Assembly (NCBI GenBank): GCA_022566265.1
Contig: JADFJG010000018.1
Location: forward strand, 1-40,456
Source: Pseudomonadota bacterium
GTDB taxonomy: Bacteria > Pseudomonadota > Alphaproteobacteria > SMXQ01
Direction: 5' to 3'
Length of the DNA: 40,456 bases
Shown here: piece after piece, positions 3,694-27,010 of the stretch
Layout: each line of letters opens with the position of its first letter
Numbering within the stretch: position 1 is the first letter of the stretch
The notes under the pieces: model-generated
The model's input: the letters and a program-made list of their open reading frames with translations, nothing else
Told to the model about the DNA's origin: nothing
Databases searched by the model: none
Program-made: the position numbers and the translations under genes

Positions 3694-3705
3694 CGGCAAC
3701 CCATT

Positions 3706-4938: not shown

Positions 4939-5997
4939 TCATCCCGCGGATCCAATCGCCATGTCGATGAGCGCCCGGCCGACCCGGCCGGCTTCGACGT
5001 CTTCCAAGGCCTTGTCGATATCGGCTAACGGATAGTCCCGTGTGTCCATCTTGGTCAGCGGAAGCCTGCCGCTCAGGAACTCGGCCGCGTAATCCGGTAT
5101 GTCCCGGTCGGGCACGGTATCGCCACCCCAACTGCCCAGGAGACGCTTGCCGCGGATGAGATCGTAAGGGTCGATGGCGATGCGTTCGCCCGGCGCCGGA
5201 TTGCCGGCGACGACGCAAAGCCCGCCACCGTCCCTTGCCGCGCCAAAGGCGGTTTCCATGACCGCGGGCCGGCCCGAGGCCTCGATGGCAAGATCGACGC
5301 CGCGCCCATCGGTGATCCCGAGGACGGCCTCGAGCGGATCGCGCGAGGCGGCATTCACCGTATGCGTCGCGCCGAGCGTTTCGGCCTGGCGCAGCTTCGC
5401 CTCGATGACGTCGACGGCGATGATCGGGGTTGCTCCCGCCATGGCGGCCACCGCCACGGCCGAGGCGCCGACGCCGCCGACGCCGAAGACGGCGACCGAC
5501 TGGCCGCGCCCGAGTTTCGCCGTGTTGCGCACGATGCCGCCGCCCGTCGGCACGGCGCAGCCGAGCAACGCCGCCTCTCGCAGTGGCATTTCGGGCGGGA
5601 TGGGGGTGAGGCGGTTCTCCGATACCACCGCGCGGCGCATGAAGGTGCTGATGGCGCCCGAATTAACCGGGCCTTCGTCACCCTGATAGACAGTGGAAGG
5701 CGCCTCCGCGCCTTCGCCCTTGATCCAGGACAGCACCACGTGATCGCCCGGCCCGACCTTGGTCACGCCGTCGCCGATCTCGGCGACGATGCCCGATCCC
5801 TCGTGGCCCAGGGTGTGGGGGAGGTGCGGGTCGGGGCCCTTAAGGCCGCGGACCTCGTTGATCTGGGAACGGCACACGCCGCTGTAGGCCACGTCCACCA
5901 GCACCTGTCCGGGCCCCAGCGCCGGGAGCTTCAGATCCATGATCCTGAGCGCGGCTCCGGTCTCCACCAGAACCGCCGCCTCGACCCTGGCGGTCAT
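4939..5997 (-). CDS. Zinc-type alcohol dehydrogenase (MDR superfamily) without the structural-zinc loop
   Basis: This 352-residue medium-chain dehydrogenase oxidises or reduces a hydroxyl/keto group with NAD(P). The catalytic zinc ligands are visible as VCRSQ near residue 39, the GHEGSG motif near 60, and LLGCAVPTGGG near 150. The nucleotide-binding motif is VAVFGVGGVGASAVAVA. The usual four-cysteine structural-zinc loop is replaced by WIKGEGAEAPSTVYQ, which holds no cysteine. The ORF track extends 51 residues too far. The ATG at 5997 is chosen because the fold starts there and AAGGAA lies upstream. Within the operon it probably acts on a sugar or its precursor. Confidence 0.88.
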   Translation of the reverse strand: MTARVEAAVLVETGAALRIMDLKLPALGPGQVLVDVAYSGVCRSQINEVRGLKGPDPHLPHTLGHEGSGIVAEIGDGVTKVGPGDHVVLSWIKGEGAEAPSTVYQGDEGPVNSGAISTFMRRAVVSENRLTPIPPEMPLREAALLGCAVPTGGGIVRNTAKLGRGQSVAVFGVGGVGASAVAVAAMAGATPIIAVDVIEAKLRQAETLGATHTVNAASRDPLEAVLGITDGRGVDLAIEASGRPAVMETAFGAARDGGGLCVVAGNPAPGERIAIDPYDLIRGKRLLGSWGGDTVPDRDIPDYAAEFLSGRLPLTKMDTRDYPLADIDKALEDVEAGRVGRALIDMAIGSAG

Positions 5998-6076
5998 ACC
6001 CCGTTGTTTCCTTTTGCCCGTGGCGTCTCTAACGAGTCCGTGCCCGCCCATCCGGCGTGGCGGGTCCGGCCTCGCG

Positions 6077-6739
6077 CTATCCGGCGATGAACCAGTAGTA
6101 ATCACCGCTATAACCGGCCTCGTCGAACAGCGCCGTCCAGTCCTCGACATGCATGTAACTCAGCGCCGTCAGGTTCCATGCCAGCATGTTTTGGCGCTCC
6201 TCGTCGTTGCGCCAGGCGTCGACGGTGATGAAGGCGTGCCGGCGGGAGACCCGCTCGATCTCGCCGAGCGCCCGCTTGCACTCCTCGATCGCCAAATTGT
6301 GAACCGTGTTGATGGCGATGACGAGATCGAAGCTGGCGTCCTCGAACGGCAGCTCCCTCGCGTTCGCCACCTGGACGAAAGGTTTCATGTCTTCGATGGC
6401 ATTCTCGATGGCGTAAGACGAGACGTCGATGCCGCGAATGTCGATGCCGGGCATCAGCAGCTTGAAATCATGCATCATGAAGCCCTTGGCGCAGCCGACA
6501 TCGAGCACCGAGGCGTCCTCGGCCAGCCCGTAGTGGTCGCGAAACCGCTTGACCGTCTCGGTCCAGAAGCGGGGATGATAATGGTAGCCGCCGTAACCGG
6601 TCAGCCTATCGCCGTCGAAGAACCCGGCGCCGAACTCCCGCGCGGTGGCGCGATGCCCGTCCGTTATGAGTTTGGCGCGCTCATCCACCGGCCGCGGCGA
6701 GGTTGGATAGCGGTCGAGGAGATTGATTTCCTGGCCCAT
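6077..6739 (-). CDS. SAM-dependent methyltransferase (VLDVGCAKGF type)
   Basis: The SAM-binding motif is VLDVGCAKGFMMHDF near residue 80. It is followed by RGIDVSSYAIENAIEDM, then FDLVIAINTVHNL where most relatives have an EH. It ends in WTALFDEAGYSGDYYWFIAG. The combination CAKGF, NTVHNL and a terminal YxGDYYWFI marks a recognisable subgroup of sugar-cluster methyltransferases. The longer frame opens with TTG at 6760; the ATG at 6739 (MGQEINLLDRYP) fits the subgroup better, though neither has a clear ribosome site. It sits between the ALS-like TPP enzyme and the dehydrogenase. Confidence 0.82.
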   Translation of the reverse strand: MGQEINLLDRYPTSPRPVDERAKLITDGHRATAREFGAGFFDGDRLTGYGGYHYHPRFWTETVKRFRDHYGLAEDASVLDVGCAKGFMMHDFKLLMPGIDIRGIDVSSYAIENAIEDMKPFVQVANARELPFEDASFDLVIAINTVHNLAIEECKRALGEIERVSRRHAFITVDAWRNDEERQNMLAWNLTALSYMHVEDWTALFDEAGYSGDYYWFIAG

Positions 6740-6773
6740 AAAGGGAACGCGTAGCGTCAATCGTTCGCCGGCC

Positions 6774-8570
6774 TCAGTCGAGATGGCGTGACACTTCGAG
6801 TGGCTCGACGATCATGTTTTTCAAAAATTCATCGCGCGGCATCAAGGGATTGGGATCCTCGATGGGACGGCCGGACTTTAACATAGGCACCAGGCGCTGG
6901 TTCGGGTCGAACTCCAGGTTGCACAGGACCGGGCCCTCATGGTCGAGAACCTGGCGAATCTTCTCGCGCATGCCGGCGTGACTTTTAATCGAGAGGGCCT
7001 TGATGCCGTATGCGCGGGCAATGCTTACGTAATCCGGATCGGGGACACCGCCTTCCGGCCGGGAAGCGTGGTACCGGCTATCGTACCAGTCATCCTGGGT
7101 CTGTTGGATGATGCCGTAGCCGTGATTATTGAACAGGAAGATCTTGATCGGCAGCCGATGGTGGTCGATTGTCGCCAGCTCCTGAATGTTCACTTGCAGG
7201 CCGCCGTCGCCAATGATGCAGATCACCTGCTTCTTATCGTTGGCGAAGCATCCGCCCATGCTGGCAGCCAGGGAATAGCCCATCGGCGAGTTGTTGAGTG
7301 CCGATAAAACCCTCTGGTTCTTGCCAATTTCATAGCCTTGGAAAGTCTGGATCAGGTTGCCGCCACAATCGGTGAAGATGATATCGCCCTCGGCGGTCTC
7401 CTTGGACAGATCGCGCAGGAAGACATAAGGATTTACCGAACCCTTCTGCTTCTCGAATTCCGGGTCGCAGGACGGGTATTTGTCCCGCCAGTCGGCGATT
7501 TTGGCGAGCCACGGGGAGATATCGCGCGTTCTAATCCTGTTCATCTTTTGATCGATGACATTGAAGAAGTCGCTGACATCCGCCTGGATCTTCACATCGA
7601 TTTTCATGCCCTGGCGGGAGAACTTCGATAGTTCACTTTGGTCGAGCTCGACCACCACCTTCTTGGCATCCCGCGCAAAGCTGCTGGCCGGGGTCCCCGT
7701 GGCATGTGAATCGAGGCGCGAGCCAATCGAAAGGACAAAGTCTGAATTCTGGATGGCAAAGTTGCCGCGCCGCGTCGAGCTGATTCCGAAACCGCCGATG
7801 TTGAGCGCATGATTGGTTTCATACATATCCATCGTTGCCCAGGTGAGGGCGATCGGAAAGCCAAGCCGGTCCGCCAGCCGCCGCGCGCGCTCTTCCTCTT
7901 TCTTGATGCGGATGGCACCGCCCAGCACCAGAATCGGGCGTTCCGCCTCGGCGATCAGTTTGAGGACCCGTTCGACCTTGTTCTCCAACGGTTTCGGGTC
8001 CAGCTTCTTCTTTTTCCTGGGCTTGAACGATGGCAGTGTCCGCGGGTCGATGTTCATGCGTTGTACGTCGTCGGGAATGTCGATGAAGACCGGTCCCGGA
8101 CGGCCCGTGGTCGCCAGGTGAATCGCCTTCTCAAGCTCGTAGCGGATGCGTGAAGGGTCCTCGACCAGCGCGGCGTACTTGGTTATCGGCTTCACCAGCT
8201 CCACATGAGGCGATTCCTGGAAGCCCAACTGGCGCACGCCAGGGGCGTTCTTGCTGAGCCGGGTGGTCGAGACCTGACCGGCCAGAAAGATCGAGGGAAG
8301 CGAATCGTAATAAAGACACGCCATGCCGGTCAGCAGGTTGGTGACGCCCGGGCCCGTCGTCACGATCGCGGCACCCATATTGCCGGTCACCCGGGTATAG
8401 CCGTCAACCGCCATCGCCGCGGCCTGCTCATGCAGGGTGGGGATATATTCGATATTGGCCTCGGCGGCGACCGAATCGATGAGCCGCGCATTCGCCCCGC
8501 CGGTGACGACGAAGACATGGCGAATCCCAAGCCCCACCAAAAATTTAGCTACGTAATCGGAAACCTGCAT
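6774..8570 (-). CDS. Acetolactate-synthase-like thiamine-diphosphate enzyme
   Basis: This is a 598-residue enzyme with the three-domain layout of the acetohydroxyacid synthase family. The N-terminal TPP-PYR domain has the catalytic Glu48 in LHEQAAAMAVDGYTR. The central domain contains RPILVLGGAIRIKK. The C-terminal TPP-binding domain has GDGGLQVNIQELATI followed by LFNNHGYG. Housekeeping IlvB is normally beside its small subunit IlvN; here the neighbours are methyltransferases and sugar enzymes. Known polysaccharide relatives such as YerE add a two-carbon unit from pyruvate to a 4-keto sugar, making branched sugars. The ORF opens at 8750, but the family start is MQVSDYVAKFL at 8570; an ATG at 8675 is also possible. 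Confidence 0.88.
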   Translation of the reverse strand: MQVSDYVAKFLVGLGIRHVFVVTGGANARLIDSVAAEANIEYIPTLHEQAAAMAVDGYTRVTGNMGAAIVTTGPGVTNLLTGMACLYYDSLPSIFLAGQVSTTRLSKNAPGVRQLGFQESPHVELVKPITKYAALVEDPSRIRYELEKAIHLATTGRPGPVFIDIPDDVQRMNIDPRTLPSFKPRKKKKLDPKPLENKVERVLKLIAEAERPILVLGGAIRIKKEEERARRLADRLGFPIALTWATMDMYETNHALNIGGFGISSTRRGNFAIQNSDFVLSIGSRLDSHATGTPASSFARDAKKVVVELDQSELSKFSRQGMKIDVKIQADVSDFFNVIDQKMNRIRTRDISPWLAKIADWRDKYPSCDPEFEKQKGSVNPYVFLRDLSKETAEGDIIFTDCGGNLIQTFQGYEIGKNQRVLSALNNSPMGYSLAASMGGCFANDKKQVICIIGDGGLQVNIQELATIDHHRLPIKIFLFNNHGYGIIQQTQDDWYDSRYHASRPEGGVPDPDYVSIARAYGIKALSIKSHAGMREKIRQVLDHEGPVLCNLEFDPNQRLVPMLKSGRPIEDPNPLMPRDEFLKNMIVEPLEVSRHLD

Positions 8571-8718: not shown

Positions 8719-9414
8719 TCACCTGTATTCAGGCCGCAATCCAACTCCAATCGCCCAGATGTAGTGGCACATGGGCGCGTAGCTGGTGTGCAGAACCTCG
8801 TCGTTCATGCCGAACATAAACACGTTCTCGAAGTATCTCTCTGTGACTTCTCGGAGAGTCTTGAAGCTCTTCAGGTTAATGTGCTGAATTCTGCTTCGCT
8901 CCGTTGCGTATTGCGCCGCACTGATGTTCGGCGTTCCGGTGATCAAGACACCGGATGGCACAAGGCATCGAACAATATTGTCCATAAAAGCCTTCTCGGA
9001 TTCCGGCTCCAGATGTTCGATGACATCAATGGAAAAGGCTGCATCGATTTTAACACTCGGTCGCTTCTGAGTGACATCAGCAAGCTCGTAGGTGACGTTC
9101 GTCAAATGGGCGAGGCGCTTGGGGTTGCTCTCGATGTGGCGCGGCTCCCAGTCGACGCAGTGCAGATGGCCTACCGCCTGGGCCACAATCGAAATGCCAA
9201 AACCGTCACCGCAGCCGACTTCCATCGCCCGCGCCTTGCCTTCGAGCATCTTCGCGCAAAATTTGTAGCGCGAGAGCACAAAGACCAAGTGTTTGGGGTC
9301 ATGGACCATGCTATAGGACGTCCATGGGCCGAGACGCACCTCTTCAATGTCGAACTGCGGACCAGCGCCCAGTTCGTACGCTTCCTTTGCCGAGATCTTT
9401 TTGCTCTTTTTCAT
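8719..9414 (-). CDS. Class I SAM-dependent methyltransferase
   Basis: This 231-residue protein has SAM motif I in AMEVGCGDGFGISIVAQ near residue 65. The strand-2 aspartate is in HCVDWEP. FSIDVIEHLEPESE and CLVPSGVLITGTPN follow, as in UbiG/Methyltransf_23-type enzymes. The start is fixed by an ATGA overlap with the stop of the upstream SDR; the ORF track starts seven codons too early. The N-terminus is Lys-rich (MKKSKKISAKEA). The gap of about 150 bp to the TPP enzyme is larger than elsewhere in this block. Confidence 0.84.
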   Translation of the reverse strand: MKKSKKISAKEAYELGAGPQFDIEEVRLGPWTSYSMVHDPKHLVFVLSRYKFCAKMLEGKARAMEVGCGDGFGISIVAQAVGHLHCVDWEPRHIESNPKRLAHLTNVTYELADVTQKRPSVKIDAAFSIDVIEHLEPESEKAFMDNIVRCLVPSGVLITGTPNISAAQYATERSRIQHINLKSFKTLREVTERYFENVFMFGMNDEVLHTSYAPMCHYIWAIGVGLRPEYR

Positions 9415-10235
9415 GCGATGTCGTCGCCCCTCCAATCGTTTAAGTATCGTCGCAACTTGAACATGTCCGGTGTACTCGACAGTTTCTCGCCGAGGCGCCG
9501 CTCGCCCCAGATATCATTGACCACGCTAAAATTCCTGCCGCTGACCACATCCCGGGGCTGGGCGATTGCCCAGTCGAGGAAATCCAGGATCTGACTCATG
9601 GGCGTGCATTCATCACTGTTGAGCTTCTGCAATGTCCTCTGATAGTTCGACCCGGCTTTCTCGCCCGCTCTCAGGGTTTCCGCGTGGATTTTCGTGTCGG
9701 CCCAGCCCGGGCCAACAATCACGAACCGCGCGTCCGAGACCTCGGCGTCGAGCAGTTCGCACATCTTGATCTGGCCGATCTTGGAGACGATCTCTGCCGA
9801 GTAATTGCGCGGCGCGTTGTTCGTTCCCGGCCCGGCAAACAGGATGACGATGGAAAGCTGCTCTGTCCCTCGGCGGCGCATTGGCAGGAGCGCATGCGCG
9901 AAGCGCATCTGCTGGGTCAAATTCACGCTCACTGACCGCTCCCACTCGTCGAAATCACATTCGAGGAACGGTGCGATTGGCTCCATGGTCGCCGGACAGA
10001 TCATGAGGACATCCCAAACGGGCGCGGCGCGCACAAGATCGGTGCAAGCCTTCTTGACGGACGGGATGTCCGTCAAGTCACAGGGAACCAAAGTGGCGCC
10101 AGTCTCCGCCAGTTCGGCTGTGGCAGAGGACGGTGTTCGATAGGTTCCTGCCACCGACCAGCCGCGAGCCAGCCAACGCCGGCCAGCAGCGGTCCCGATA
10201 TCACTCGATATGGAGATAATGAGGCGCGTGCTCAA
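9411..10235 (-). CDS. Short-chain dehydrogenase/reductase family protein with an altered active site
   Basis: The 274-residue sequence follows the SDR fold: an N-terminal beta-strand and nucleotide loop (ISISSDIGTAAGRRW), VPCDLTD at strand 3, SVNLTQQM at helix 4, and a proline-glycine motif VGPGWADTKIH. The first glycine of the usual TGxxxGIG loop is serine. The position expected for the catalytic tyrosine of YxxxK is Glu148 in NYSAEIVSKIG; Tyr145 lies three residues earlier. It may be a reductase with an altered site or a non-catalytic partner. It begins with TTG overlapping the upstream stop (TTGA) and ends in an ATGA overlap with the methyltransferase, so it is well embedded in the operon. 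Confidence 0.8.
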   Translation of the reverse strand: MSTRLIISISSDIGTAAGRRWLARGWSVAGTYRTPSSATAELAETGATLVPCDLTDIPSVKKACTDLVRAAPVWDVLMICPATMEPIAPFLECDFDEWERSVSVNLTQQMRFAHALLPMRRRGTEQLSIVILFAGPGTNNAPRNYSAEIVSKIGQIKMCELLDAEVSDARFVIVGPGWADTKIHAETLRAGEKAGSNYQRTLQKLNSDECTPMSQILDFLDWAIAQPRDVVSGRNFSVVNDIWGERRLGEKLSSTPDMFKLRRYLNDWRGDDIA

Positions 10236-11224
10236 GGCTTGTGCCTGTACTCAAGCGGTTGTTCCTTGACCCGGTCCCAGTTCGCCTCCACCCAGTCGAC
10301 CACCTCCGCGATGCCGTCCCCGAAATCGATAGCGGGACGCCAGCCGAGCTCGCTCCGCGCCTTGGCCGAATCGATGACGTAGGCGGCATCCTGGCCCGGC
10401 CGTTCGGCGACGGTCTCAACGCAATCGGCGATTTCCCGTCCCATGCGCTCACAAACGGCGCCGACGACATCGGCGATGGCGATGCCGCCATCGGGCGACA
10501 GGTGATAGCGCTCGCCCACGCGCCCTCCTTTGAGGACGGCCAACTCGCCCAGCGAGACATCGCGCACATGGATATAGGATTTGACGGCGCCGCCGCCGCC
10601 ATGAAGCTGAATGCGCTTGCCGAGCTTCACGTAGATCGCGGTGCGCGGGATGATCTTGAACAATTGCTGGCGGGCGCCGTAAACATTGGTCGCCCGGACG
10701 GTGAGAACGGGAAACCCGTACTCCTTGTGATAGACGGAAAGCAGCATGTCCGCCGCCGCCTTGGAGGCGGCGTAGGGCGTGCTGGGATTGTCCGGCGTCT
10801 CCTCCGTCACCAGACCGGCGCAATGGCCGTAGGCCTCGGGCGAGGAGATATGAAGGTACCGCCCGGGGTAGTCCTGGCGGCGCAAATGGTTGACCAGGCG
10901 CGCCAGCGCCACCGTGTTGGTCTCGAACCACTGCTCGGGGCTCTCCCAGCTCGGCGCGACCTCGCTCTGGGCGGCGAAATTGACGATGGCGTCGGGCCGT
11001 TCCCGGTCCAGCAGGTCGATCAGCGCGTCCATGTCATGGTTCATGTCGAGTTGGAAGAAGCGAAGCCGCGAGAGATCGTTCCGCGCCTTGTAGCGCAGGA
11101 AGAAATCGGGCTTTTCGGGGGACCGGCTGATGGCGAGGATTTCGCTCTTGGGATCGTCGAGCAGGAGATCGACGAAATCCTGGCCGGAAAAGCTGTTGCT
11201 GCCAAGCACGGCGATCTTCGGCAT
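10232..11224 (-). CDS. NAD-dependent sugar epimerase/dehydratase (extended SDR)
   Basis: This 330-residue extended SDR resembles nucleotide-sugar 4,6-dehydratases. The NAD loop is VLGSNSFSGQDFVDLLL. The active site shows ISSPEAYG, which keeps the catalytic Glu of dehydratases, and PYAASKAAADMLL, the YxxxK. TVRATNVYGARQQLFKIIPR and YIHVRDVS follow, as in the dTDP-glucose and GDP-mannose dehydratase families. The ORF track adds 64 spurious residues. The ATG at 11224 overlaps the E1-beta stop (TGATG). It probably makes a 4-keto-6-deoxy nucleotide sugar, or epimerises one; the nucleotide base is not evident. Confidence 0.87.
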   Translation of the reverse strand: MPKIAVLGSNSFSGQDFVDLLLDDPKSEILAISRSPEKPDFFLRYKARNDLSRLRFFQLDMNHDMDALIDLLDRERPDAIVNFAAQSEVAPSWESPEQWFETNTVALARLVNHLRRQDYPGRYLHISSPEAYGHCAGLVTEETPDNPSTPYAASKAAADMLLSVYHKEYGFPVLTVRATNVYGARQQLFKIIPRTAIYVKLGKRIQLHGGGGAVKSYIHVRDVSLGELAVLKGGRVGERYHLSPDGGIAIADVVGAVCERMGREIADCVETVAERPGQDAAYVIDSAKARSELGWRPAIDFGDGIAEVVDWVEANWDRVKEQPLEYRHKP

Positions 11225-12270
11225 CAGAAGGGCCCGGTGAAGCCGGGATCGGGCACGTCGAGCGGCCCATCGGCGGGCGGCATCGCCACCGGGCCGCGGT
11301 CCAGCATCTCCATGACGGCGGTAACGATGTCGCCGGCGCGCGGATAGTAGTGCCGGGCCAGCGCCGGCGAGGTCGGTGTCGGGATGTCGGGAAGGCCGAT
11401 GCGGCGCGGCGGGCAAATGAGCCGGTCGAAGGCCCGTTCGACGATTTGGGACACGATCTCGCCGCCGAACCCGCCGGTCACGCCGCCGGTATCGGCGACG
11501 AGGAGACGGCCGGTGCGGCGGACCGACGCGATGACGGTCTCGGCGTCGAAGGGGCGCAGGCTGCGCAGATCGATGACTTCGGCCGATATGCCGTGTCCGG
11601 CCAGGACCTCGGCGGCGCGCATCGCCTCGATCGTCATGTAGGAGATGCCGACGAGGGTGATGTCCTCTCCCTCGCGGAGACGCCGCGCCTCGCCGATGGG
11701 GACGCGGTAGGGCTCCTCGGGCACCTCGCCCTTGGTGCCGTGGAGCCAGCGGTGCTCGAGATATATCACCGGATTGTCGTCCTCGACGGCGGCGATCAGC
11801 AGCCCCTTGGCGTCATAAGCCGTCGCCGGCATCACCACCTTGAGGCCCGGCACGTGGGCGAACCACGCCTGCAGGCTCTGGGAATGTTGGGGTCCCTGGC
11901 CCCAGCCCCGCCCGATGACCATGCGGACGACGAGGGGCACGCTGGCCTCGCCGCCGAACATGTAATGAAATTTCGCCGCCTGGTTGACCAGTTGCTCGAT
12001 CGACAACAGCGCGAAGTCCAGGCGCTGGTGGGTGAGGATCGGCCGCATGCCGACGATGGCAGCGCCGATGGCGACGCCGGTCATGGCGTTCTCGGACGTC
12101 GGCATGTCCATCACCCGGGCGCCGTGGCGCTCCTTGAGCCCCAGCGTGGTGCCGAAGACGCCCTTGGGGTCGGGGACGCCGAGGCCCATGAGGTAGACGT
12201 TGGCATCGGCGGCGAGGCACTGGTCGGTCGCCTCGCATATGGCCTCGGCGTAGGTGATGACGCGGCTCAC
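11224..12270 (-). CDS. TPP-dependent E1 component, beta subunit (transketolase-like)
   Basis: This 348-residue protein matches the beta subunit of 2-oxoacid dehydrogenase E1 enzymes (Transket_pyr plus Transketolase_C). The opening is ITYAEAICEATDQCL, with MPTSENAMTGVAIGAAIVGMRP carrying the catalytic-site Glu and YLEHRWLHG near residue 170. The C-terminal domain includes EVIDLRSLRPFD and LLVADTGG. It normally pairs with E1-alpha to decarboxylate a 2-oxoacid and pass the acyl unit to lipoyl E2. No E2 or E3 gene is present; it is encoded among sugar enzymes instead. It starts with GTG in a GTGA overlap with the alpha subunit, consistent with a heterotetramer made in equal amounts. Confidence 0.88.
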   Translation of the reverse strand: MSRVITYAEAICEATDQCLAADANVYLMGLGVPDPKGVFGTTLGLKERHGARVMDMPTSENAMTGVAIGAAIVGMRPILTHQRLDFALLSIEQLVNQAAKFHYMFGGEASVPLVVRMVIGRGWGQGPQHSQSLQAWFAHVPGLKVVMPATAYDAKGLLIAAVEDDNPVIYLEHRWLHGTKGEVPEEPYRVPIGEARRLREGEDITLVGISYMTIEAMRAAEVLAGHGISAEVIDLRSLRPFDAETVIASVRRTGRLLVADTGGVTGGFGGEIVSQIVERAFDRLICPPRRIGLPDIPTPTSPALARHYYPRAGDIVTAVMEMLDRGPVAMPPADGPLDVPDPGFTGPF

Positions 12271-13253
12271 CGGCTCTCACTCGCGTAGATTTCGGTCGAC
12301 ATCTCTTCCGCCGGCGGAAAGGCGCTCTCCTCGGCGAAGGTGAAGGCGTCCCGCACTTCCTTGTCGATGTCCTCTTCCAAGTCCCCAAGGACGCCCTCTT
12401 CCACCCGGTGATCGTTCAGCAGTCTGGCGCGGTGGGTCGCGATCGGGCAGCGGGAAAGCCAAGCCTCGAATTCCTCTGGCGCGCGGTAGCCGATGTCGTT
12501 GTCGAGGTTGGGGCCGCAGTGCTCGCGCCAGCGGTAGGTGGCGAACTCGAGGAACACCGGACCGTCGCCGGCGCGCAAACTTTCGACGGCGTCCAGCGCC
12601 GCCACATGGACGGCCTCGGCGTCGTTACCGTCCAGGGCGTCGGCGGTGATGCCGTGGCCGCGCGCGAGCGCGACGATCGGGCGTCCCTCGGGCTGGCGCA
12701 CGGACAGTGGCGAATAGACCGAATAGAGGTTGTTCTCGCAGACCAAGAGCACCGCAAGCCGGTGGGTCGCCGCGAAGTTCAGGCTTTCATGGAAGATGCC
12801 GGTCTCGACGGCGGCGTCGCCGAAGAAGGCGACAGCGATGCCGGTCTCTCCCCTGAGCTTGGCCGCCAGCGCCACGCCGACGGCCATGGCGATGGTGCCG
12901 CCGACGATGGGCGTGGCGCCGAGGAAACCGGCGGCGCGGTCGATGAGGTGCATGGAGCCGCCCTTGCCGCCGCTGCACCCCGAAGCCTTGCCGTAAATCT
13001 CCGCCATCATCGCCTTGAGATCGCCGCCCTTGGCGAGGTAATGGCCGTGGGATCGGTGGCCGCTGACGATTTGATCATCACCTTCGAGAGCCTGACAGAC
13101 CCCCGCCGCCACCGCCTCCTGTCCGATGCAGAGATGGACGGGACAGCGCATCCGTTGTTCGCCATAACGCTCGACGATCGCTTCCTCGACGCGGCGGATG
13201 CGCCGCATCGTCCGGTAAAGGGCAAGCGCCGTTTCGGCCGATACCGCCGTCAC
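12267..13253 (-). CDS. TPP-dependent E1 component, alpha subunit
   Basis: This 328-residue protein corresponds to the E1-alpha family. It begins LYRTMRRIRRVEEAI, followed by HLCIGQEAVAAGVC, GHRSHGHYLAKGGD and GGKGGSMHLID. The TPP motif is FFGDAAVETGIFHESLN with the ENN about 30 residues on. It ends at the GTGA overlap with the beta subunit. The ORF track runs 330 codons too far upstream over the epimerase. The GTG at 13253, 11 bp after the epimerase stop, is the likely start; a TTG at 13268 is the alternative. Without E2/E3 nearby, the pair may transfer an activated two-carbon or acyl unit to a sugar or an amino sugar. Confidence 0.88.
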   Translation of the reverse strand: MTAVSAETALALYRTMRRIRRVEEAIVERYGEQRMRCPVHLCIGQEAVAAGVCQALEGDDQIVSGHRSHGHYLAKGGDLKAMMAEIYGKASGCSGGKGGSMHLIDRAAGFLGATPIVGGTIAMAVGVALAAKLRGETGIAVAFFGDAAVETGIFHESLNFAATHRLAVLLVCENNLYSVYSPLSVRQPEGRPIVALARGHGITADALDGNDAEAVHVAALDAVESLRAGDGPVFLEFATYRWREHCGPNLDNDIGYRAPEEFEAWLSRCPIATHRARLLNDHRVEEGVLGDLEEDIDKEVRDAFTFAEESAFPPAEEMSTEIYASESR

Positions 13254-13264
13254 GCCGGATGGGT

Positions 13265-14278
13265 TCAACTTAGGTCGCACGCCTGCATCGTGCGGATGTT
13301 GTAATAGCGGACCCCGTTCATCGGATCGGGCAGCCGGCCGGTCCTGAAGGCGTCGACCAGCCCCTTCACCGCGTCCTCGACGGTGCGCTTGGGAGTGAAG
13401 CCGAGCTCCCTGCGGATCTTGTCGGAAGAGATGTGGTAGGACCGGTTGTCGTCCGTCGGCTCGACATCGAGCGCGACGCCATCGCCGACCACGCCCCGCA
13501 CCGATCTCGCGATATCCATCACCGAGCGGTTCTCGTATCCGGCGTTGTAGATCTTGCCGTCGATCGTCTCGTCGGCGGTCTCGAGGCATTCGACATAGAG
13601 GTCCGTCATGTCGTCGATGTGGATGTTGGGGCGCAACTGTTCGCCGCCGAACACCTTGATCCGCCCATTGTTGACGGCGTGGTTGGTGAGGATATTGACG
13701 ATGACGTCGAGCCGCTGGCGCGGCGCATAACCGCAAACCGTCGCCGGGCGCAGCGTCAGGGTGACGAAACCCGGCGCCCGTTCCTCCTCCAACACCTCTT
13801 CGCACATCGCCTTGTATTTCGAATAATCCGTCAACGGTTTCAGCGCCATGTCCTCGGTGATGTCGGGCTCGTCCTTGAGGCCGTAGACGCTCGACGACGA
13901 GGCGTAGATGAATCGCTTGGCGCCCGCGTCCCGCGCCGCCCGGACCAGCGGGCGAAAGGCGTCGAAATTTATCGACTTGCCGAGTTCCGGGTCGAGCTCG
14001 AAGGACGGGTCGTTGGATATGCAGGCGAGATGGATCACCGCATCGCAGCCGGTGAGCGCCCGGGCCACCGTTTCCGGGTCGCGGAGATCGCCCTTGATCT
14101 CGGTCAGGCGCGGGTGCCCGGCGACCGGGGCCAGCACGTCTTCGCCGTAGAGGTAGAGGTCGAGCACCGTGACCCCGTGGCCGGCCCCGAGCAGCTTGGG
14201 CACCAAGGCGCTGCCGACATAGCCGGCGCCTCCGGTGAGGAGGACGTTCCATTTCCGGGGCTCCGTCACGCCGCTCAC
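13265..14278 (-). CDS. NAD-dependent sugar epimerase (extended SDR)
   Basis: This 337-residue extended SDR has the NAD loop LLTGGAGYVGSALVPKLL. The active-site serine is in YASSSSVYGL, and YSKYK supplies the YxxxK. LRPATVCGYAPRQR and NIHIDDMTDLYV follow, matching GalE-like and NDP-sugar epimerase enzymes. Translation probably starts at the GTG at 14278, whose GTGA overlaps the stop of the kinase fusion, giving MSGVTEPRKWN. The longer ORF in the track is an artefact. Tightly coupled to the adenylyltransferase-kinase gene, it is a candidate epimerase for the heptose-like or other sugar made by that enzyme. Confidence 0.86.
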   Translation of the reverse strand: MSGVTEPRKWNVLLTGGAGYVGSALVPKLLGAGHGVTVLDLYLYGEDVLAPVAGHPRLTEIKGDLRDPETVARALTGCDAVIHLACISNDPSFELDPELGKSINFDAFRPLVRAARDAGAKRFIYASSSSVYGLKDEPDITEDMALKPLTDYSKYKAMCEEVLEEERAPGFVTLTLRPATVCGYAPRQRLDVIVNILTNHAVNNGRIKVFGGEQLRPNIHIDDMTDLYVECLETADETIDGKIYNAGYENRSVMDIARSVRGVVGDGVALDVEPTDDNRSYHISSDKIRRELGFTPKRTVEDAVKGLVDAFRTGRLPDPMNGVRYYNIRTMQACDLS

Positions 14279-15834
14279 TTCAGCAGGGAGGTGATGTATT
14301 TCACCAGTTGGGGTTTCTCGACCGAGGACCGGTGGCCGACGATGCCGACCTTGATCGCGCCGACGGCGTTGCCGATGAACCCCGCCATGTCCAGCGGTAT
14401 GCCCGAGGCGGCAAGGGGCGAGGTCACCGCGAGGAAGGCGTCGCCGGCGCCGATGGTATCGACCACCGTTCGCGTGAATGCGGGGATCATTCGCAGCGGC
14501 CGGTCCGGTTCGAACACGGCGCAGCCGTGATCGCCGTAAGTGACGATGAAGCGTGGGCAGTCGATGCGGGTGGCCAGACCGTCCCGCAGCACCCGGTCGA
14601 TATCGCCGTGCTTGTCGCCGGCGGCGAGCCGCGCCTCGGGCGCGTCGAGGCACATATAGTCGGCGGACGGATACTTGGTGATGGGGTTGAAGCCCTGGTT
14701 GCCGCTGTTGGTCTGGGCGTTGACCGCGAGAAACCTGGAGTCCCGCCGCAATACCTCGACCGTCGAGCCGCCGATCAGGCCGTGGCCGAAGTCGGTGACG
14801 ATCACCAGGTCGTATCCGCCGGCGCGCTCGGCGATCAGGCGGTCGAGCTCGGCCCTTTGCTCGTCCGCCAGCGCCGTGTCGTCCATGTAATAGACCTCGA
14901 ACAGCTTGCGGAAATAACTCTGTTCGACGAAGCGGCGCTTGCGTGTCGTCGGCACGCCGGACCGATAGAGCGGCGTCAGCGTGACATTCGGTTTCAGGCA
15001 GCCGCGCACCAGTTCCTCGTAGGGGTCGCCCTCGCCGAGCGCGGTCAGTATCTCCACCTCGCGGCAGAACCCCGCCACGTGGTTGGCGGCGGCGAACACG
15101 CCGCCGGCGAAGGCCTCGTCGCTCTTGTGCAGGGTCGTGATGATGTTTTCCTTCCACGACTTGCCAAGCGCGTTGACATAGCTGTACTCGTCGACGATGG
15201 CGTCGCCGACAAGCAGGACCCGGAGATCGGCGATGCCCTCGATCGCTTCCAGGGCATGATCGAGATATCGTCCGCCCTCGCGGCGTTCCTCCAGATAATC
15301 GCGCAGTTCCGGTTCGTAGACGTCCAAGTGCCGGTTGATGAGCGCCGAGGCGCTGAACACGATCTCGTCGGTGAAGACGATGCGCCCGCCATGCTCCTCC
15401 ACCGCCAGGCGTTCGCCGGTGATCTTGCCGGTGACATCGTCTTCCTCGCGCGCGTATTCCGAGCCCTTGAGATAGACCGCGGGCTTGACGGCGTGAATCG
15501 CGGGCTCGGCGCTGGCTGCGTCATTGATGCCGACGTAATCGACGATCTCGAGGGAAGCCAGCGTCTCCGCCCGGATCTCGGCGGCGAACACCGGCCGGTC
15601 CGGGCCCTTGCCGACGAACCGGTCGGCCGTGACCGTCACCATGAGGACATCGCCCTCGCGCCGGCCCGCCTCGAGGTGGCGGATATGGCCGTGGTGCAGG
15701 ACGTCGAACACGCCATGGGCGAGGACGACGGCCTTGCCTTCCTTGCGCGCGGCTGCCGCGATGGTGGCAAGCTCGTCCAAGGGCCGGACCTTGCCGGAGG
15801 CCTTTACCATCTCTGGTTCGGGTTGCGTCGTCAT
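14275..15834 (-). CDS. Bifunctional nucleotidyltransferase / PfkB sugar kinase, HldE (RfaE)-like but with reversed domain order
   Basis: This 519-residue protein has two domains. The N-terminal one is a cytidylyltransferase-fold nucleotidyltransferase (VLAHGVFDVLHHGHIRHL, HxGH at about 47-50, and VYLKGSEYA). The C-terminal one, about residue 200 onward, is a PfkB/ribokinase kinase with VLLVGDAIVDEYSYV at its start and the catalytic DTIGAGDAF at 459-467. E. coli HldE makes ADP-heptose with the kinase first and the adenylyltransferase second; here the order is swapped. The reaction is presumably phosphorylation of a sugar phosphate and activation with a nucleotide. It is coupled by ATGA and GTGA overlaps to epimerases on both sides, and a GmhA-like isomerase lies near 26.5 kb. 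Confidence 0.85.
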   Translation of the reverse strand: MTTQPEPEMVKASGKVRPLDELATIAAAARKEGKAVVLAHGVFDVLHHGHIRHLEAGRREGDVLMVTVTADRFVGKGPDRPVFAAEIRAETLASLEIVDYVGINDAASAEPAIHAVKPAVYLKGSEYAREEDDVTGKITGERLAVEEHGGRIVFTDEIVFSASALINRHLDVYEPELRDYLEERREGGRYLDHALEAIEGIADLRVLLVGDAIVDEYSYVNALGKSWKENIITTLHKSDEAFAGGVFAAANHVAGFCREVEILTALGEGDPYEELVRGCLKPNVTLTPLYRSGVPTTRKRRFVEQSYFRKLFEVYYMDDTALADEQRAELDRLIAERAGGYDLVIVTDFGHGLIGGSTVEVLRRDSRFLAVNAQTNSGNQGFNPITKYPSADYMCLDAPEARLAAGDKHGDIDRVLRDGLATRIDCPRFIVTYGDHGCAVFEPDRPLRMIPAFTRTVVDTIGAGDAFLAVTSPLAASGIPLDMAGFIGNAVGAIKVGIVGHRSSVEKPQLVKYITSLLK

Positions 15835-16828
15835 GGCTTTGCCGCTCCCAGATAGCGGAACCAGTCGGCGGTGGCCTCAACGATGGTTTCGGGTGTCCAT
15901 ACCGGCGCCTCGCGCCAGTACTCGATCTCCTCGACCATCCTTGCCACCCCCTCCTCGAAGGTGATTTTCGGCCCCCAGCCGAGCCGTTCCTCGATCCGCG
16001 TCGTGTCCCCCCAGGTGCGGTCGGGCTCGCCCGGGCGCTTGGGCACATAGATGACCTCGCCGCCCAGGAGTTCGACCAGGCGGTTGACGCTATAGCTGTC
16101 GCCGGATCCGACATTCAGGATTTCGCCCGCGAGGTCGGATCGGGCAGCGAGAATGAACGCCTCGACGACGTCGGTCACGAAGGTGAAATCCCGCGTCTGG
16201 GTGCCGTCGCCGACGACGGTGAAGGGCCGGCCCGCGAGCTTCTGCGCCAGGAACACCCCGAACACGGCGCCGTAGGTGCCCGACGTGCGCGCGCGCGGCC
16301 CGTAGACGTTGAAGAACCGCAACGACACCGCCGGCAGGCCGTAGGTTTGGTGCCAGTGCATCACATACTGCTCGGCGATGTTCTTGGTCAGCGCATAGGG
16401 GTACATGGGCCGGATGGGCGCGCTTTCGGGCGTCGGGAACACGTCCGGGACGCCGTAGCACGATGACGACGCGGCATAGACGAGTCGTTTCACGCCGGCT
16501 GCCCGGGCGGCTTCGAGCACGGCCAGTGTCCCCTCCACGTTGGCGCGGTGATAGGGAACCGGCGCCTGGATCGACGGCACGATGTCGGCGAGCGCCGCCA
16601 GGTGAAAAACCCATTCGGCACCGTCAAAAGCCTTCGCGAGTGCGTCCGGTTCGCAGATATCGCCCTCGATAACTCTGAGCCCAGGTCGATCGCGCAAATG
16701 CGCCAGGTTCTCCGGCCGGCCGGTGCTGAAATCGTCGATCACCGTCACCTCATGGCCGTCGTCGAGCAGACGCTCGACCAAATGGCAGCCGATGAACCCG
16801 GCGCCACCGGTGACCAGGGCGCGGTTGG

Positions 16829-16832
<4 letters not shown>
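15831..16832 (-). CDS. NAD-dependent nucleotide-sugar epimerase (UDP-glucose/GlcNAc 4-epimerase-like)
   Basis: The 333-residue protein has the NAD loop [18 protein letters not shown], the [11 protein letters not shown] stretch after strand 2, and [15 protein letters not shown]. The catalytic region is YAASSSCYG with [11 protein letters not shown] as the Yxxx[20 protein letters not shown] and [12 protein letters not shown] complete the GalE/WbpP/Gne pattern. The ATG at 16832 sits in an ATGA overlap with wzt, and the end overlaps the next gene likewise. It likely interconverts UDP-sugars for the repeat unit. Confidence 0.88.
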
Positions 16833-18228
<1,396 letters not shown>

Positions 18229-18229
<1 letters not shown>

Positions 18230-19089
18230 TAGATGCGGTCCACGAGGTTGCGTTCGGCGCGCACGAAGAACGCCAGGCCGACCGCCAGCATGATCACCGA
18301 GATGACAAGCGGCATCACGAACATGACGACGCCGGGCACCGTGCCGCCGGCCCCGGTCAGCGCCCAGCGGAAGCCTTCGATGATGCCGACCATCGGATTG
18401 AGACCGTAGATAAGCTGGAAGCGCTCGGGCACCAGCGAGGCCGGGTAGATCACCGGCGATGAGAACATCCATATCTGGATGATCAACGGCAGCGCCAGCC
18501 CGATATCGCGATAAAGCGCGTTCAGTGCCGCCCCGAACACGCCGACCGCGAACCCGCAGAACGCCGCGTAAACCACGAATAGTGGCAGCGCCAGGATCGA
18601 CATCGTCGGAACGACGCCGAAAAAGGCCATGAGGCCGAACAGCACCACCAGCGCCAGGATGAAATCGGCCAAGGACACGAACAGGGCCGAGGCCGGCAGC
18701 AGGAGACGCGGGAAGTAAAGCTTGGTCACGATCTCGCGGTTGGCCACCAGGGACTGGCCACCGCCCATCGCCGTCTTGGAGAAGAATTGCCAGGGAACGA
18801 AGCCGGCGAGGAAGAACACCGGATAGGGCAGATCATTGGACGGCACACGAATGAGGTAACCGAGGAAGATGCTGAAGATCAGCGTCATCGCCAGCGGCTC
18901 GAACAGGGCCCAGGCGAGGCCGACCACCGTTTGCTTGTAGCGGACCTTCAAGTCGCGCCACACCAGGATGTGGAGGAAGGCGCGGTAGCGCCACAACTCT
19001 CTGGGGTTGAGCGATGTCAGGTTGCGGTCTGGGCTGATCACCCTTATGTGCGGGGTTCCTTGGTCAGCCGAGGTTTCACTGTCCGTCAT
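18229..19089 (-). CDS. wzm: Polysaccharide ABC exporter permease
   Basis: This 286-residue ABC-2 type membrane protein has six predicted helices. The N-terminal amphipathic segment includes YRAFLHILVWRDLKVRYKQT, the family hallmark before the first helix, and VGLAWALFEPLAMTLIFSIF. Later parts are PYPVFFLAGFVPWQFF and the SSPVIYP motif near residue 215. It pairs with the adjacent ATPase, and the two genes overlap by one base. It begins about 70 bp after the ops-like element, so it is the first gene expected to benefit from antitermination. Confidence 0.93.
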
Positions 19090-19256: not shown

Positions 19257-19754
19257 TCAGGCCGGGGCGATGGCCTCGCTCGACAGACGCGTCTTGACCT
19301 GGCGATCCAACAGGTCGAACAACACGAACACCCGCTCGGCATCCGCCATGGAGTGGAACCGGCCGATCAGTTCGGCGAAGGGCCCCTCGATCACCCGCAC
19401 GAGATCGCCGGACTTGTAGTTGCCGGGACGGGTGGTGTCGAACATTCCCGTCCCCTCGCGCTTCCGTATCTCCTCGACGATCCCGTCCGGTACCGGCGCC
19501 GGCGCATCGGCGTGGCGCACCAGGTCCGAGACGCCAATGGTGGAGAGGATCGGCCGCCACCGGGTCGCCAGCAAATCCAGGGCGACGAACAGATAACGCG
19601 GAAACAGTGGCCGGCGCACCAGCTCCCACCGCCGCGCGTGGCGGCGGCGTTTCTGGTAGCGCGGCAGATAGGCGGTGTAGCCTTGGCGTCTCAGGTGATC
19701 GAGCGCCTGGGCTTCCGCCTGGGCCCGGGTGTAGACGACGTACCAGGCGGTCAT
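19257..19754 (-). CDS. rfaH: RfaH-like transcription antiterminator (NusG paralogue)
   Basis: This 165-residue protein matches RfaH in length (162) and layout. The N-terminal NGN domain includes WYVVYTRAQAEAQALDHLRRQ, RRPLFPRYLFVALD (RfaH: EPLFPNYLFVEFD) and IGVSDLVRHA. The C-terminal KOW domain is GDLVRVIEGPFAELIGRF, then VFVLFDLLDRQVKTRL. Such proteins ride with RNA polymerase after recognising ops in exposed DNA and suppress pausing and Rho termination across long operons. The ATG is in an ATGA overlap with the MarR-type gene; the ORF track's 343-residue version is a shadow extension. An ops-like element lies 83 bp downstream. It presumably drives the wzm-to-methyltransferase operon. Confidence 0.88.
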   Translation of the reverse strand: MTAWYVVYTRAQAEAQALDHLRRQGYTAYLPRYQKRRRHARRWELVRRPLFPRYLFVALDLLATRWRPILSTIGVSDLVRHADAPAPVPDGIVEEIRKREGTGMFDTTRPGNYKSGDLVRVIEGPFAELIGRFHSMADAERVFVLFDLLDRQVKTRLSSEAIAPA

Positions 19755-20431
19755 GCTTGCGCCTCCTCCTCCTCGCGCACCGCGGGTTGCTCGGTGACCC
19801 GTAGCAGGGCGGGCGCCAGCACCCGGTCGCCGCCGATGCCGGCCTTGCCGGCGGCCTCGGCGATGGCCTCGAAGGTGTCCTGGGGGGTCTTGACGTCGGT
19901 GATTACCAATGCGTCGAGGCCACCGGAATCTTGCGTCAGGTCCAAGGCCGCCGCTAAATTCCCAACCACCGGCCGTCCCGCGCACGATGTCGCGCCGCCC
20001 TCGGCGTCGATGACGCAGACGATCTCGACCGGGGTATCGGTGGCGCTCAGCACCATGATCTCGGCCAGCTCGCCGCCGCCGACGAGCGCGATCCGGCGCC
20101 GGCCGTCGCGCGCGCAACCGGCCAGCAGGGCCGCGCATTGGTGCTTGGCGTCGCGGAAGAAATTGAAGGAAACCGACAGATACTCGGCTGTCAGCCGGCT
20201 TTTTTCGGCGAATCCCCGGGGGGTCAGATAGTAGGCGTAGCGGTTGAGCGGCGCCTGGCGGACCTTGATCAACCCCTTGTTCGCACATCGTTTGAGGTAG
20301 GCGTTGGCAAGCCCCAGCGCGATGCCGAGCTCACTCGACAGCGAGCGCTGGGTCAGCTCGCTGTCGCGCTCGACCGCGCTCAGCAGGCCAAGCATGATCG
20401 TCGTTTTCTCGGAGTCAGGCTGCTGCGTCAT
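19751..20431 (-). CDS. MarR-family EPS-associated transcriptional regulator with C-terminal sensor-like domain
   Basis: This 226-residue regulator starts with a winged-helix domain whose sequence (LLSAVERDSELTQRSLSSELGIA, ANAYLKRCANKGLI, YAYYLTPRGFAEKSRLT) matches the MarR-type regulators found beside exopolysaccharide genes. After about residue 110 there is a second region (RRRIALVGGGELAEIMVLS) that looks like a small Rossmann-like domain, so it may sense a nucleotide or sugar nucleotide; this is inference. It is the first gene after a promoter with two palindromes, suggesting autoregulation, and is coupled to the RfaH-like gene by an ATGA overlap. Confidence 0.87.
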   Translation of the reverse strand: MTQQPDSEKTTIMLGLLSAVERDSELTQRSLSSELGIALGLANAYLKRCANKGLIKVRQAPLNRYAYYLTPRGFAEKSRLTAEYLSVSFNFFRDAKHQCAALLAGCARDGRRRIALVGGGELAEIMVLSATDTPVEIVCVIDAEGGATSCAGRPVVGNLAAALDLTQDSGGLDALVITDVKTPQDTFEAIAEAAGKAGIGGDRVLAPALLRVTEQPAVREEEEAQA

Positions 20432-21382: not shown

Positions 21383-22387
21383 TCAAATGTCGAAGCGGTC
21401 CTTGATGCCGGCATCTTCCAGATCGGCGCGCATCATGATGCGGACGAGTTCCATGAAGTTCGTGCGCGCCTCCCAGCCCAGCACTTTCTTGGCCTTGGAG
21501 GGATCTCCCATGAGCAGATCGACCTCGGCCGGGCGGAAGTAGCGGGAATCGATCTCGACGTAGTCGTGCCAGTCGAGCCCGACCATGCCGAACGCGGCGT
21601 CGAGAAACTCCCGGATACTGTGGGTTTCGCCGGTGGCGATGGCGTAATCATCAGGCTCGTCCTGCTGCAGCATCAGCCACATCGCCTCGACGTAATCCTT
21701 GGCGTAGCCCCAGTCGCGTTTGGCATCCAAATTGCCCAGAAAAAGCTTGTCTTCGCGGCCGGCGAGGATACGGGAAAGTCCCCGGGTGATCTTGCGGGTA
21801 ACGAAGGTCTCGCCCCGGCGGGGGCTTTCGTGGTTGAAGAGAATGCCGTTCGAGGCGTGCATACCGTAGGCTTCGCGGTAGGCAAGAACGTTGTAGTAGG
21901 CGTTGACCTTGGCGCAGGCGTAGGGACTGACTGGATTGAACGGCGTTTTCTCGGACTGGGGGACCTCTTTGGCCTTGCCGAACATCTCGGAGCTCGACGC
22001 TTGGTAAAAGCGGACGTGCTTCTCCGCGCCCACGGCGCGGATCGCCTCGAGCAGCCTGAGCGTGCCCATGCCAACGACATCGGCGGTGTAAATGGGCTGG
22101 TCGAAGGACACCCGGACGTGGCTCTGTCCGCCGAGGTTGTATAACTCGTCCGGTTCGGTCTTGTTCAGGAGCCCGGCCATGAATGACCCGTCCGTGAGAT
22201 CGCCGTAATGGAGGAAAAGCTTGATATCGTCTGCGTGGACATCCTGGAAGATGTGGATGATGCGCCCGGTATTGAACGAGGAGGATCGTCGAATGACGCC
22301 ATGCACCTCGTAGCCTTTCTCGAGCAGGAACTCGGCGAGATAAGAGCCGTCCTGGCCGGTGATGCCGGTGATCAATGCGCGTTTCAT
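21383..22387 (-). CDS. gmd: GDP-mannose 4,6-dehydratase
   Basis: This 334-residue enzyme converts GDP-mannose to GDP-4-keto-6-deoxymannose. The NAD(P) loop is [18 protein letters not shown], followed by [16 protein letters not shown]. The catalytic motif is ASSSEMFG and the YxxxK is [29 protein letters not shown] is diagnostic of Gmd. The true start is the ATG at 22387 in an ATGA overlap with the aminotransferase-like gene; the ORF track overextends. Next to a ColD-like enzyme it points to a GDP-3,6-dideoxyhexose rather than only fucose or rhamnose, and no GDP-fucose synthase (fcl) is visible. Confidence 0.95.
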
Positions 22388-23580
22388 GCTGCGAAAAAGC
22401 TCCTGACGGTATTGCCGACGTAATCCACTTCTTCGTCGGTTATGCGCGGATGCACTCCCCAGTAGAGGCCCGTATCCATGATACGGTCGGCGCCGGCAAG
22501 GGAGCCTGCCACGCGGTGGGAGACATGCTCGAAGGCGGGTTGACGCGCCATGTTGCCGCAGATTATCGGTCGGGTCTCGATACCCTTCTCCTCGAGGAAG
22601 CGCATAAGCTTGTCTTTCTCTGCCGATGACCGGCACAGAACGGGATAGCCGAAAAAGGCCGGTTCGGTATCCTCGGTCGTCCGCATGACCGACAGTTTGC
22701 CGGCTTCGACCAGTACCGTGAACGCCTCGTGCCAGGCTTTTCCGATCTCCTTCCGGCGGCGGTTGAAGGTGGACAGTTTGGGCAACTGACGTAGACCGAA
22801 GGCCCCATTCAGCTCGGTGGGACGGAGGTTGAAGCCGGTGGTGATGAAGAGGAAACGTGGGTCGATTTCGGGGTAGCGTCGCTCGATCGCGTCGCGGTCC
22901 GTCCGGTGCCGGGACCAACCGTGAGAACGCATGGAGCGGAGAAGATCGGCGATCTCGTCGTCATCGGTCACCGCCATCCCACCCTCGATGGTGCTGATGT
23001 GGTGGGAGAAATAGAAGCTGAAGGTGCCGATTTGGCCGAAGCAGCCGGTGTAGCGTCCGCCATGGCGCGTGCCCAGCGCCTCGCAGGTATCCTCGACCAG
23101 CCACAGGCCGTGTTCGGCGGCAAGGCTAACGACCGGCGCCATGGGGGTGGCGTTGCCCATGGCGTGGATCACGCAGATCGCTCCCGTCTTCGGCCCGATG
23201 GCCGCTTTTACCGCATCCAGGTTCATCTGCAGCGTGTCCGGGTCGCAGTCGACGAGCACCGGCACGCATCCCGCCTGGACGATCGGCCAGATCGTGGTCG
23301 ACCAGGAAACGGCGGGGACGATGACCTCGGTTCCCGGTCCCAGACGCCGGCGCCCTTGCCGTTCCGGAATCATCGGATTGCTGATGGCGAACCAGGACAA
23401 CAGGTTGGCCGACGATCCCGAATTGACGAAAATGGCGTTACCCGCGCCGAGATATTCGGCAAAGGCCTTCTCGAAGGCGAGGCACCGCGCACCCATGGTC
23501 AGTTTCGCCGATCTGAGACACGATATCGCCTCTTCAATCTCCTCATCGCCGAAGGTCACCGCGCTGATTTTGATATGCAT
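22384..23580 (-). CDS. ColD/RfbH-like PLP-dependent sugar 3-dehydratase (DegT superfamily)
   Basis: This 398-residue PLP enzyme has the DegT/DnrJ/EryC1 fold. Cofactor contacts are [13 protein letters not shown] near residue 53 and [11 protein letters not shown] near 162. At the position of the aminotransferase lysine it has histidine (His193 in [14 protein letters not shown]). In ColD and in the E1 dehydrase RfbH this Lys-to-His change turns an aminotransferase into a C3 dehydratase, and the EDxCEALG motif is typical of the same group. With gmd immediately downstream the likely substrate is GDP-4-keto-6-deoxymannose. No extra Fe-S cysteine cluster is evident, so it is nearer to ColD. The ATG at 23580 is chosen; the frame opens at 23646. 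Confidence 0.85.
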
Positions 23581-26770: not shown

Positions 26771-27010
26771 ATCGAGATCCTCTGCTTCTCGTCTCCGACG
26801 ATCCGCGATTGAAAATGACCGGTCGACCGGCCCCCGGCGATCCTTCCCCAGGCATTGCCGGTCCACCTTCAGGGCGGCGAAGAACAGCACCAGCCCGAAG
26901 GGCCATTTGGCAGCCCGCCTTCACCCAAAAGGGATGTACCACCCGCCATGGCGCGTGGCCAGAGCGATTCGTGTTGTTCCGCCGGTGCTGGCGCCCGACC
27001 GGTGGTAGGC

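Follow-up and report, generated by a model that had tools for sequence, protein, structure and literature searches.

A predicted YerE-like carboligase of a new sister clade, kept with an E1/HldE gene module in an alphaproteobacterial O-antigen cluster

Why should an acetolactate synthase (ALS)-like enzyme, encoded without an IlvN subunit, stand amongst methyltransferases and sugar enzymes, and which sugar would it act upon? The question is raised by a 40,456-nt stretch of DNA, hereafter 'the window' (contig JADFJG010000018.1 of assembly GCA_022566265.1, from a Pseudomonadota bacterium of the alphaproteobacterial lineage SMXQ01). A first-pass annotation had proposed that the enzyme adds a two-carbon unit from pyruvate to a GDP-3,6-dideoxy-4-keto sugar, supplied by gmd and a ColD-like enzyme of the same locus. 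We consider it fairly probable, judging by sequence and gene content, that it is a YerE-like carboligase adding a keto-acid-derived branch to the keto sugar of a neighbouring 'E1/HldE' module, with gmd and ColD standing apart from it; the first-pass annotation thus had the enzyme class and the idea of a branched sugar right, but the acceptor that it named is probably not the true one.

The cluster is of the O-antigen type and ABC-transporter-dependent, with a Wzt-like ABC ATPase (16829..18262, minus strand, as are all features marked (-) below; PF00005), a Wzm-like ABC-2 membrane protein (18229..19089(-); PF01061), a NusG/RfaH-type antiterminator (19257..19766(-); PF02357) and glycosyltransferases at 869 and 20561; it also contains gmd and a ColD-type 3-dehydratase. 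Its gene calls are strong homologies, as opposed to chance open reading frames. The methyltransferases and sugar enzymes reported around the ALS-like gene are indeed present, namely a methyltransferase at 2797-3699, SAM methyltransferases at 6077..6760(-) (PF08241; adjoining the TPP gene and, like the module, conserved) and at 8719..9435(-) (PF08242; the TPP gene on one side and an SDR on the other), and the SDR itself at 9411..10235(-) (PF13561). The 405-residue operon protein at 3706-4923 matches neither Pfam nor NCBIfam.

The ALS-like gene (6774..8570(-)) is an intact reading frame, open from a TTG at 8750, with a likely ATG start at 8570 and a stop at 6774, and its 598-residue ThDP-enzyme product matches the N, M and C TPP-enzyme Pfam domains (E-values of 4e-31, 1e-26 and 2e-36). 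A tblastn search of the window with E. coli IlvH found no IlvN/H regulatory subunit, confirming what had been noted at the outset; the AHAS that the host genome encodes on a different contig is adjoined by an IlvN/H gene, 44.7% identical to E. coli IlvH. The best sequence match in the PDB is JanthE (8rph; 369 bits), which is one of the YerE-like enzymes and catalyses the coupling of keto acids to ketones; plant AHAS follows at 270 bits. A Foldseek search with the predicted model (pLDDT 87) again has JanthE as its top PDB match (E 2e-57, TM 0.90), followed by AHAS (E 6e-47), a match that we take as supporting evidence only, since the model drew on relatives of both sister clades.

In a maximum-likelihood tree of 34 proteins, with YerE represented by JanthE and RfbGH-linked enzymes, the window enzyme and six relatives (65, 60, 59, 42, 40 and 39% identical) form one clade (support 100/97), sister (97/92) to JanthE and the CDP-pathway-linked YerE-like enzymes, and so lying outside the YerE/JanthE clade proper; the joint 18-row clade (100/100) leaves out E. 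coli IlvB, IlvI, Gcl, PoxB and Oxc, along with the host genome's own AHAS. Phylogeny against YerE and IlvB, the check put forward in the first-pass annotation, therefore groups the enzyme with YerE-like carboligases and apart from IlvB; tree, absence of IlvN and active-site residues together rule out an IlvB identity. As far as its sequence can place it, the enzyme represents a new clade, sister to carboligases of a known kind, within the YerE-like superclade. The closest relative (65%; loci L013/L045 and L072 of genome G745) comes from a 1-Mb metagenome-assembled genome labelled Patescibacteria, and its contig may be misbinned or recently acquired. In another genome (G368), a B12-binding radical SAM protein, possibly a C-methyltransferase, adjoins the TPP gene (L031:4834-6945).

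Turning to the active site, His289 occupies the acceptor arginine column of AHAS (the Arg of 'FDDR'; in E. coli AHAS II the contact to the acceptor carboxylate is R276), and the Trp of the AHAS 'QWQ' motif is Thr, as it is in JanthE and the YerE-like enzymes. A C-terminal signature, 'ED..PL..R..F/L..NM' ('IEDPNPLMPRDEFLKNM'), is common to the window enzyme and the YerE-like enzymes, and was not found in the AHAS, Gcl, PoxB and Oxc sequences compared. All five JanthE 'hot spots' differ (V121, Y268, P293, Y297 and K567 correspond to F117, S264, H289, T293 and M563), so that we regard the enzyme as a relative with a pocket of its own, as against a YerE orthologue, and one whose donor and acceptor may also differ. 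Set beside the YerE-like carboligases (YerE of Yersinia, ErwE and JanthE; PMC12247030, PMC12188165), it shares superclade, ThDP fold, C-terminal signature, an LPS/O-antigen setting and the loss of the AHAS acceptor residues, but forms a separate sister clade, is not partnered by RfbG/RfbH, has neither Lys567 nor the C-terminal insertion, and differs in its acceptor-pocket residues. Enzymes of this kind are sought as catalysts for chiral tertiary alcohols, and a clade with an altered active site is now added beside them.

Two conserved partners that were absent from the first reading, a PDH-E1 alpha/beta-like pair (11224-13265) and an HldE-like fusion (14275-15834), proved central to the question of the acceptor. 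They belong to a module spanning 4939-16850 of the window, which includes a Zn-dependent alcohol dehydrogenase (4939..6090(-); PF00107/PF08240; homologues of 47-55% in L031, L032, L045, L079 and L080) and the 6077-type methyltransferase (identities of 54-68% in each of the six TPP relatives and of 38-48% in many loci that have E1 only); the 8719-9435 methyltransferase, on the other side of the TPP gene, has a homologue (42%) in L045 only. Next to the SDR gene is a dTDP-glucose-4,6-dehydratase-like protein (10232..11230(-)) that keeps the Glu and YxxxK (motif SSPEAYG) and scores 210 bits against TIGR01181, under that family's cut-off of 365. There follow the E1-beta-like subunit, with transketolase pyrimidine and C-terminal domains (11224..12270(-); PF02779/PF02780), the E1-alpha-like subunit (12267..13265(-); PF00676 and tree), an NAD-dependent sugar epimerase-like protein (13265..14248(-); PF01370; 44-72% identity in module-bearing loci), the HldE-like fusion itself (14275..15834(-)), in which the nucleotidyltransferase precedes the PfkB kinase, and a LegB/GalE-like epimerase/dehydratase (15831..16850(-); homologues of 57-66% in L076, L099, L102, L105, L107 and L110). 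A GmhA-like phosphoheptose isomerase (SIS; 26150..26788(-)), scoring 114 bits against a TIGR00441 cut-off of 209, has relatives in L032, L033, L034, L072 and L099.

Each of the six relatives of the TPP enzyme is accompanied, within its locus or elsewhere in its genome, by PDH-E1 alpha/beta, a kinase resembling HldE, a protein like dTDP-glucose 4,6-dehydratase, a further epimerase and a methyltransferase (L031+L076, L032, L033, L034, L048 and L045+L072, each with E1, HldE-like gene and 10232-type dehydratase). At four of these (L032, L033, L034 and L048) the TPP gene sits in one locus with E1 alpha/beta, the HldE-like kinase and counterparts of the window's dehydratase 10232, epimerase 13265 and methyltransferase 6077, and three of the four have GmhA as well; in G368 and G745 the module genes are split over two contigs each, with E1 and TPP apart. 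The gene order on contig C148 of G368, E1b-E1a-13265-HldE-15831, is that of the window.

Across a class-wide sample of 385 genomes, the host's own included (thresholds of E<=1e-130 for the TPP enzyme and E<=1e-90 for the E1 protein), the TPP enzyme was found in 4 and E1 in 18 of the 384 others, and all four TPP genomes fall amongst the 18 (chance probability about 3.4e-6, to be read as a guide only because the sampled genomes are not independent). The E1 pair with reversed HldE occurs in roughly 5% of the sampled class genomes, mostly without the TPP enzyme, which we therefore regard as accessory to the module. No sampled genome from the host's own genus and family was found to have either the TPP enzyme or the E1 gene, as would fit horizontal gain. 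This recurring E1/HldE gene set, to which no function has been assigned and to which the altered-pocket clade is now linked, looks like an uncharacterised O-antigen sugar module. The linkage of E1 and TPP is one of association, and does not by itself make a single sugar the substrate of both. At three further loci (L073, L074 and L075), the E1 pair and an HldE-like gene lie near apparent split transketolase halves and a 6077-type methyltransferase.

What sort of sugar might the module make? The domain order of the fusion is the reverse of that in HldE, and the gene is a divergent second copy, the host genome having a canonical HldE on contig C58; since six of the seven genomes checked also encode a canonical HldE of their own that scores above the family cut-off, we take the module copy to be a dedicated one. 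In G745 the homologue (L072) has a GmhB-type phosphatase domain fused in front, and in G168 a sugar-1-phosphate nucleotidyltransferase adjoins the HldE-like kinase; together with the GmhA-like isomerases, these features point to a predicted route of the heptose-7-phosphate type.

The E1 alpha subunits of the module form one clade (100/99), apart from the PDH/housekeeping E1 alpha of the same genomes, in a tree whose inner branches are poorly resolved and which places one G545 paralogue, with uncertainty, inside that clade. No lipoyl E2/E3 domain was found among the window ORFs scanned. The pair probably acts as a further carboligase, resembling AviB1/AviB2. Three ThDP families, E1-type pairs and YerE-like enzymes amongst them, are reported to take ketones, including keto sugars, as acceptors, and the presence of both of these carboligase types within one O-antigen cluster is the unusual point here. 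As with the alphaKADH2 branched-sugar carboligases (AviB1/AviB2, Pau11/Pau12 and KbDH; PMC4753412, PMC12247030), the PDH-E1 alpha/beta pair of the window lies in a sugar cluster; those known serve Gram-positive antibiotics, and the likeness is one of description.

From these gene identities, the phylogenetic placement and the conserved partners we infer the reactions, donor, acceptor, nucleotide and step order of a model. The ThDP carboligase would decarboxylate a 2-keto acid, either pyruvate or one of its homologues, and join the resulting acyl carbanion to a nucleotide-activated sugar at a ketone group, which would yield a C-branched sugar of the O-antigen. The acceptor would come from the neighbouring module, by way of the GmhA-like isomerase and the reversed HldE (acting as sugar-phosphate kinase and nucleotidyltransferase), then the epimerases 13265 and 15831, and then the 4,6-dehydratase-like protein 10232; dehydrogenases and methyltransferases would complete the sugar, with the chain exported by Wzm/Wzt, and the E1 alpha/beta pair is perhaps a second carboligase. 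Because the partners in the relatives are heptose-type and PDH-like, the enzyme probably helps to make an undescribed branched sugar. In the literature that we found, neither the module served by the TPP enzyme nor its product is described, and a search for heptose, PDH and branched sugar in combination gave nothing useful; bradyrhizose, which was considered as a product, is a C10 sugar with an 11-gene cluster that includes a dTDP-glucose dehydratase-like gene (PMC4743980).

A possible parallel is the 'virenose' O-antigen region of Coxiella burnetii (CBU0664-0704), for which the parts of the reports available to us describe the E1-like CBU0692/0693, gmd, Wzm/Wzt, NAD epimerases, a phosphoheptose isomerase and an HldE with its domains reversed (CBU0678), on which phase I LPS depends (PMC5843353, PMC5423948, PMC3204966). 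The same accounts place the closest orthologues of CBU0678 in Alphaproteobacteria, from which its group was apparently acquired. Reversed HldE, E1 pair, GmhA, epimerases and ABC exporter thus recur in the window, matched by published description; a YerE-like enzyme and ColD, both present in the window, go unmentioned in those parts of the reports. We treat the likeness as a lead, because the two regions were set side by side by description and not by sequence. Since the Coxiella region fits the same module description, with a reversed HldE needed for full-length LPS and a sugar that has only been guessed at, a version of the module from a harmless alphaproteobacterium would open a Coxiella-type pathway to testing. 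More speculatively, and with distinctly less confidence than in the enzyme's part, the product might be a doubly branched, heptose-type O-antigen sugar, built by two ThDP carboligases unrelated to each other, the YerE-like enzyme and the PDH-E1-like pair, on a nucleotide-activated scaffold supplied by the dedicated reversed HldE, in a route akin to the virenose-region pathway; such a route has not yet been described.

What, then, of gmd and ColD? Both are present at 22-23.6 kb, as first reported: gmd (21383..22396(-)) scores 549 bits against a TIGR01472 cut-off of 415, and the ColD-type 3-dehydratase (22384..23646(-), with a start perhaps at 23580) has His at position 215 in place of the PLP Lys and no CxC...C iron-sulfur motif, the cysteines of the RfbH CxC motif region being absent, so that a GDP-3,6-dideoxy-4-keto sugar is plausible. 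With gmd next door, the likely ColD substrate would be GDP-4-keto-6-deoxymannose. The window thus shares gmd and a ColD-type 3-dehydratase with the colitose pathway (gmd, ColD, ColC), but has no recognised ColC, and that pathway is not linked with the TPP clade elsewhere. Most likely, the two enzymes make a separate GDP-3,6-dideoxy sugar.

The original proposal, in which GDP-4-keto-3,6-dideoxy-mannose, made by gmd and ColD, receives a C2 branch from the ALS-like enzyme to give a GDP-linked, yersiniose-like sugar, draws on the real presence of both genes, on the fact that YerE proper acts on the CDP version of the 4-keto-3,6-dideoxy sugar, and on the lack of any recognisable GDP-fucose-synthase/ColC-like protein among the scanned window proteins, which could leave the ketone free for branching. 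We nevertheless think it unlikely: the ColD and ALS-like genes are 13 kb apart with the E1/HldE module between them, and whole-genome searches with the window ColD found no ColD-like gene at E<1e-40 in the close relatives G368, G323, G168 and G342, that is, in four of the six relatives' genomes, all of which have the E1/HldE/4,6-dehydratase module. Of the other two, searched with the same query, G746 gave a partial match (36%) on a different contig, and G745 an RfbH of the CDP type, which lies on the E1 contig. As acceptor, a GDP-3,6-dideoxy sugar is possible, but less likely than the module's keto sugar.

Should the gmd/ColD sugar carry a branch, the E1 pair and the ALS-like enzyme would be equally good candidates for adding it. 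ColD-type genes directly adjoin E1 subunits, and not an ALS-like enzyme, in two unrelated genomes (L071:2095-5114 and L111:7288-9992, the latter also with two GDP-fucose-synthase-like genes), making these pairs candidates for E1-type branching of a 3,6-dideoxy sugar, and E1-type pairs branch 4-keto sugars of antibiotics; the window could on that footing make two branched sugars. That too is improbable for the window, where the E1 pair is flanked by the 10232 and 13265 genes, an arrangement also seen in G745, and where the order E1b-E1a-13265-HldE-15831 is shared with G368, a genome without ColD.

A CDP route in the window was also rejected: a CDP-glucose 4,6-dehydratase-family match over the cut-off lies on contig C10 of the host genome, but the search found no RfbH-type gene besides the window ColD. 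In the distant YerE-like genomes G462, G534, G487 and G392, RfbH and CDP-glucose dehydratase lie within about 3-10 kb of the gene, and for most enzymes on the JanthE side of the tree the genome also encodes RfbH and CDP-glucose 4,6-dehydratase, often at close range; this pairing was not found near the TPP gene in the window clade. The weakest reading, that of a lyase of small molecules (a divergent acetolactate synthase, for instance) for which the sugar cluster is incidental, can point to AHAS as the best NCBIfam match (383.6 bits, under the TIGR00118 cut-off of 538.35) and to the AHAS-like F117 and M563, but is very unlikely given the missing IlvN, the real AHAS elsewhere in the genome, the tree, the lost acceptor Arg and the signatures in common with YerE-like enzymes.

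Returning to a YerE-like carboligase acting on the module's keto sugar, there remains the reduction step, for which the SDR just upstream had been proposed. In four relatives out of six (L032, L033, L034 and L048) its gene lies beside that of the TPP enzyme, which fits a shared pathway; in the window the 8719-9435 methyltransferase separates the two. The chemistry stands up less well, since alignment shows the catalytic Tyr of YxxxK changed to Glu in the SDRs of the window and L048, with Tyr kept in the other three, and a role as ketone reductase is therefore doubtful; the branch ketone, if reduced, may instead be a substrate of the Zn-dehydrogenase at 4939.

Elsewhere in the window, the protein at 24078-25058 is an LPG_synthase_TM (PF03706), with similar proteins in the E1-module loci L033, L103 and L109. 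A biotin carboxylase N-terminal fragment at 38979-39548 switches abruptly to unrelated sequence near the contig end and is possibly a chimera or a decayed gene. Also encoded are a pentapeptide-repeat protein (27011-28462) and a Fic/DOC-family protein (30184-31497), the latter with a low third-position GC (0.54) and perhaps recently acquired.
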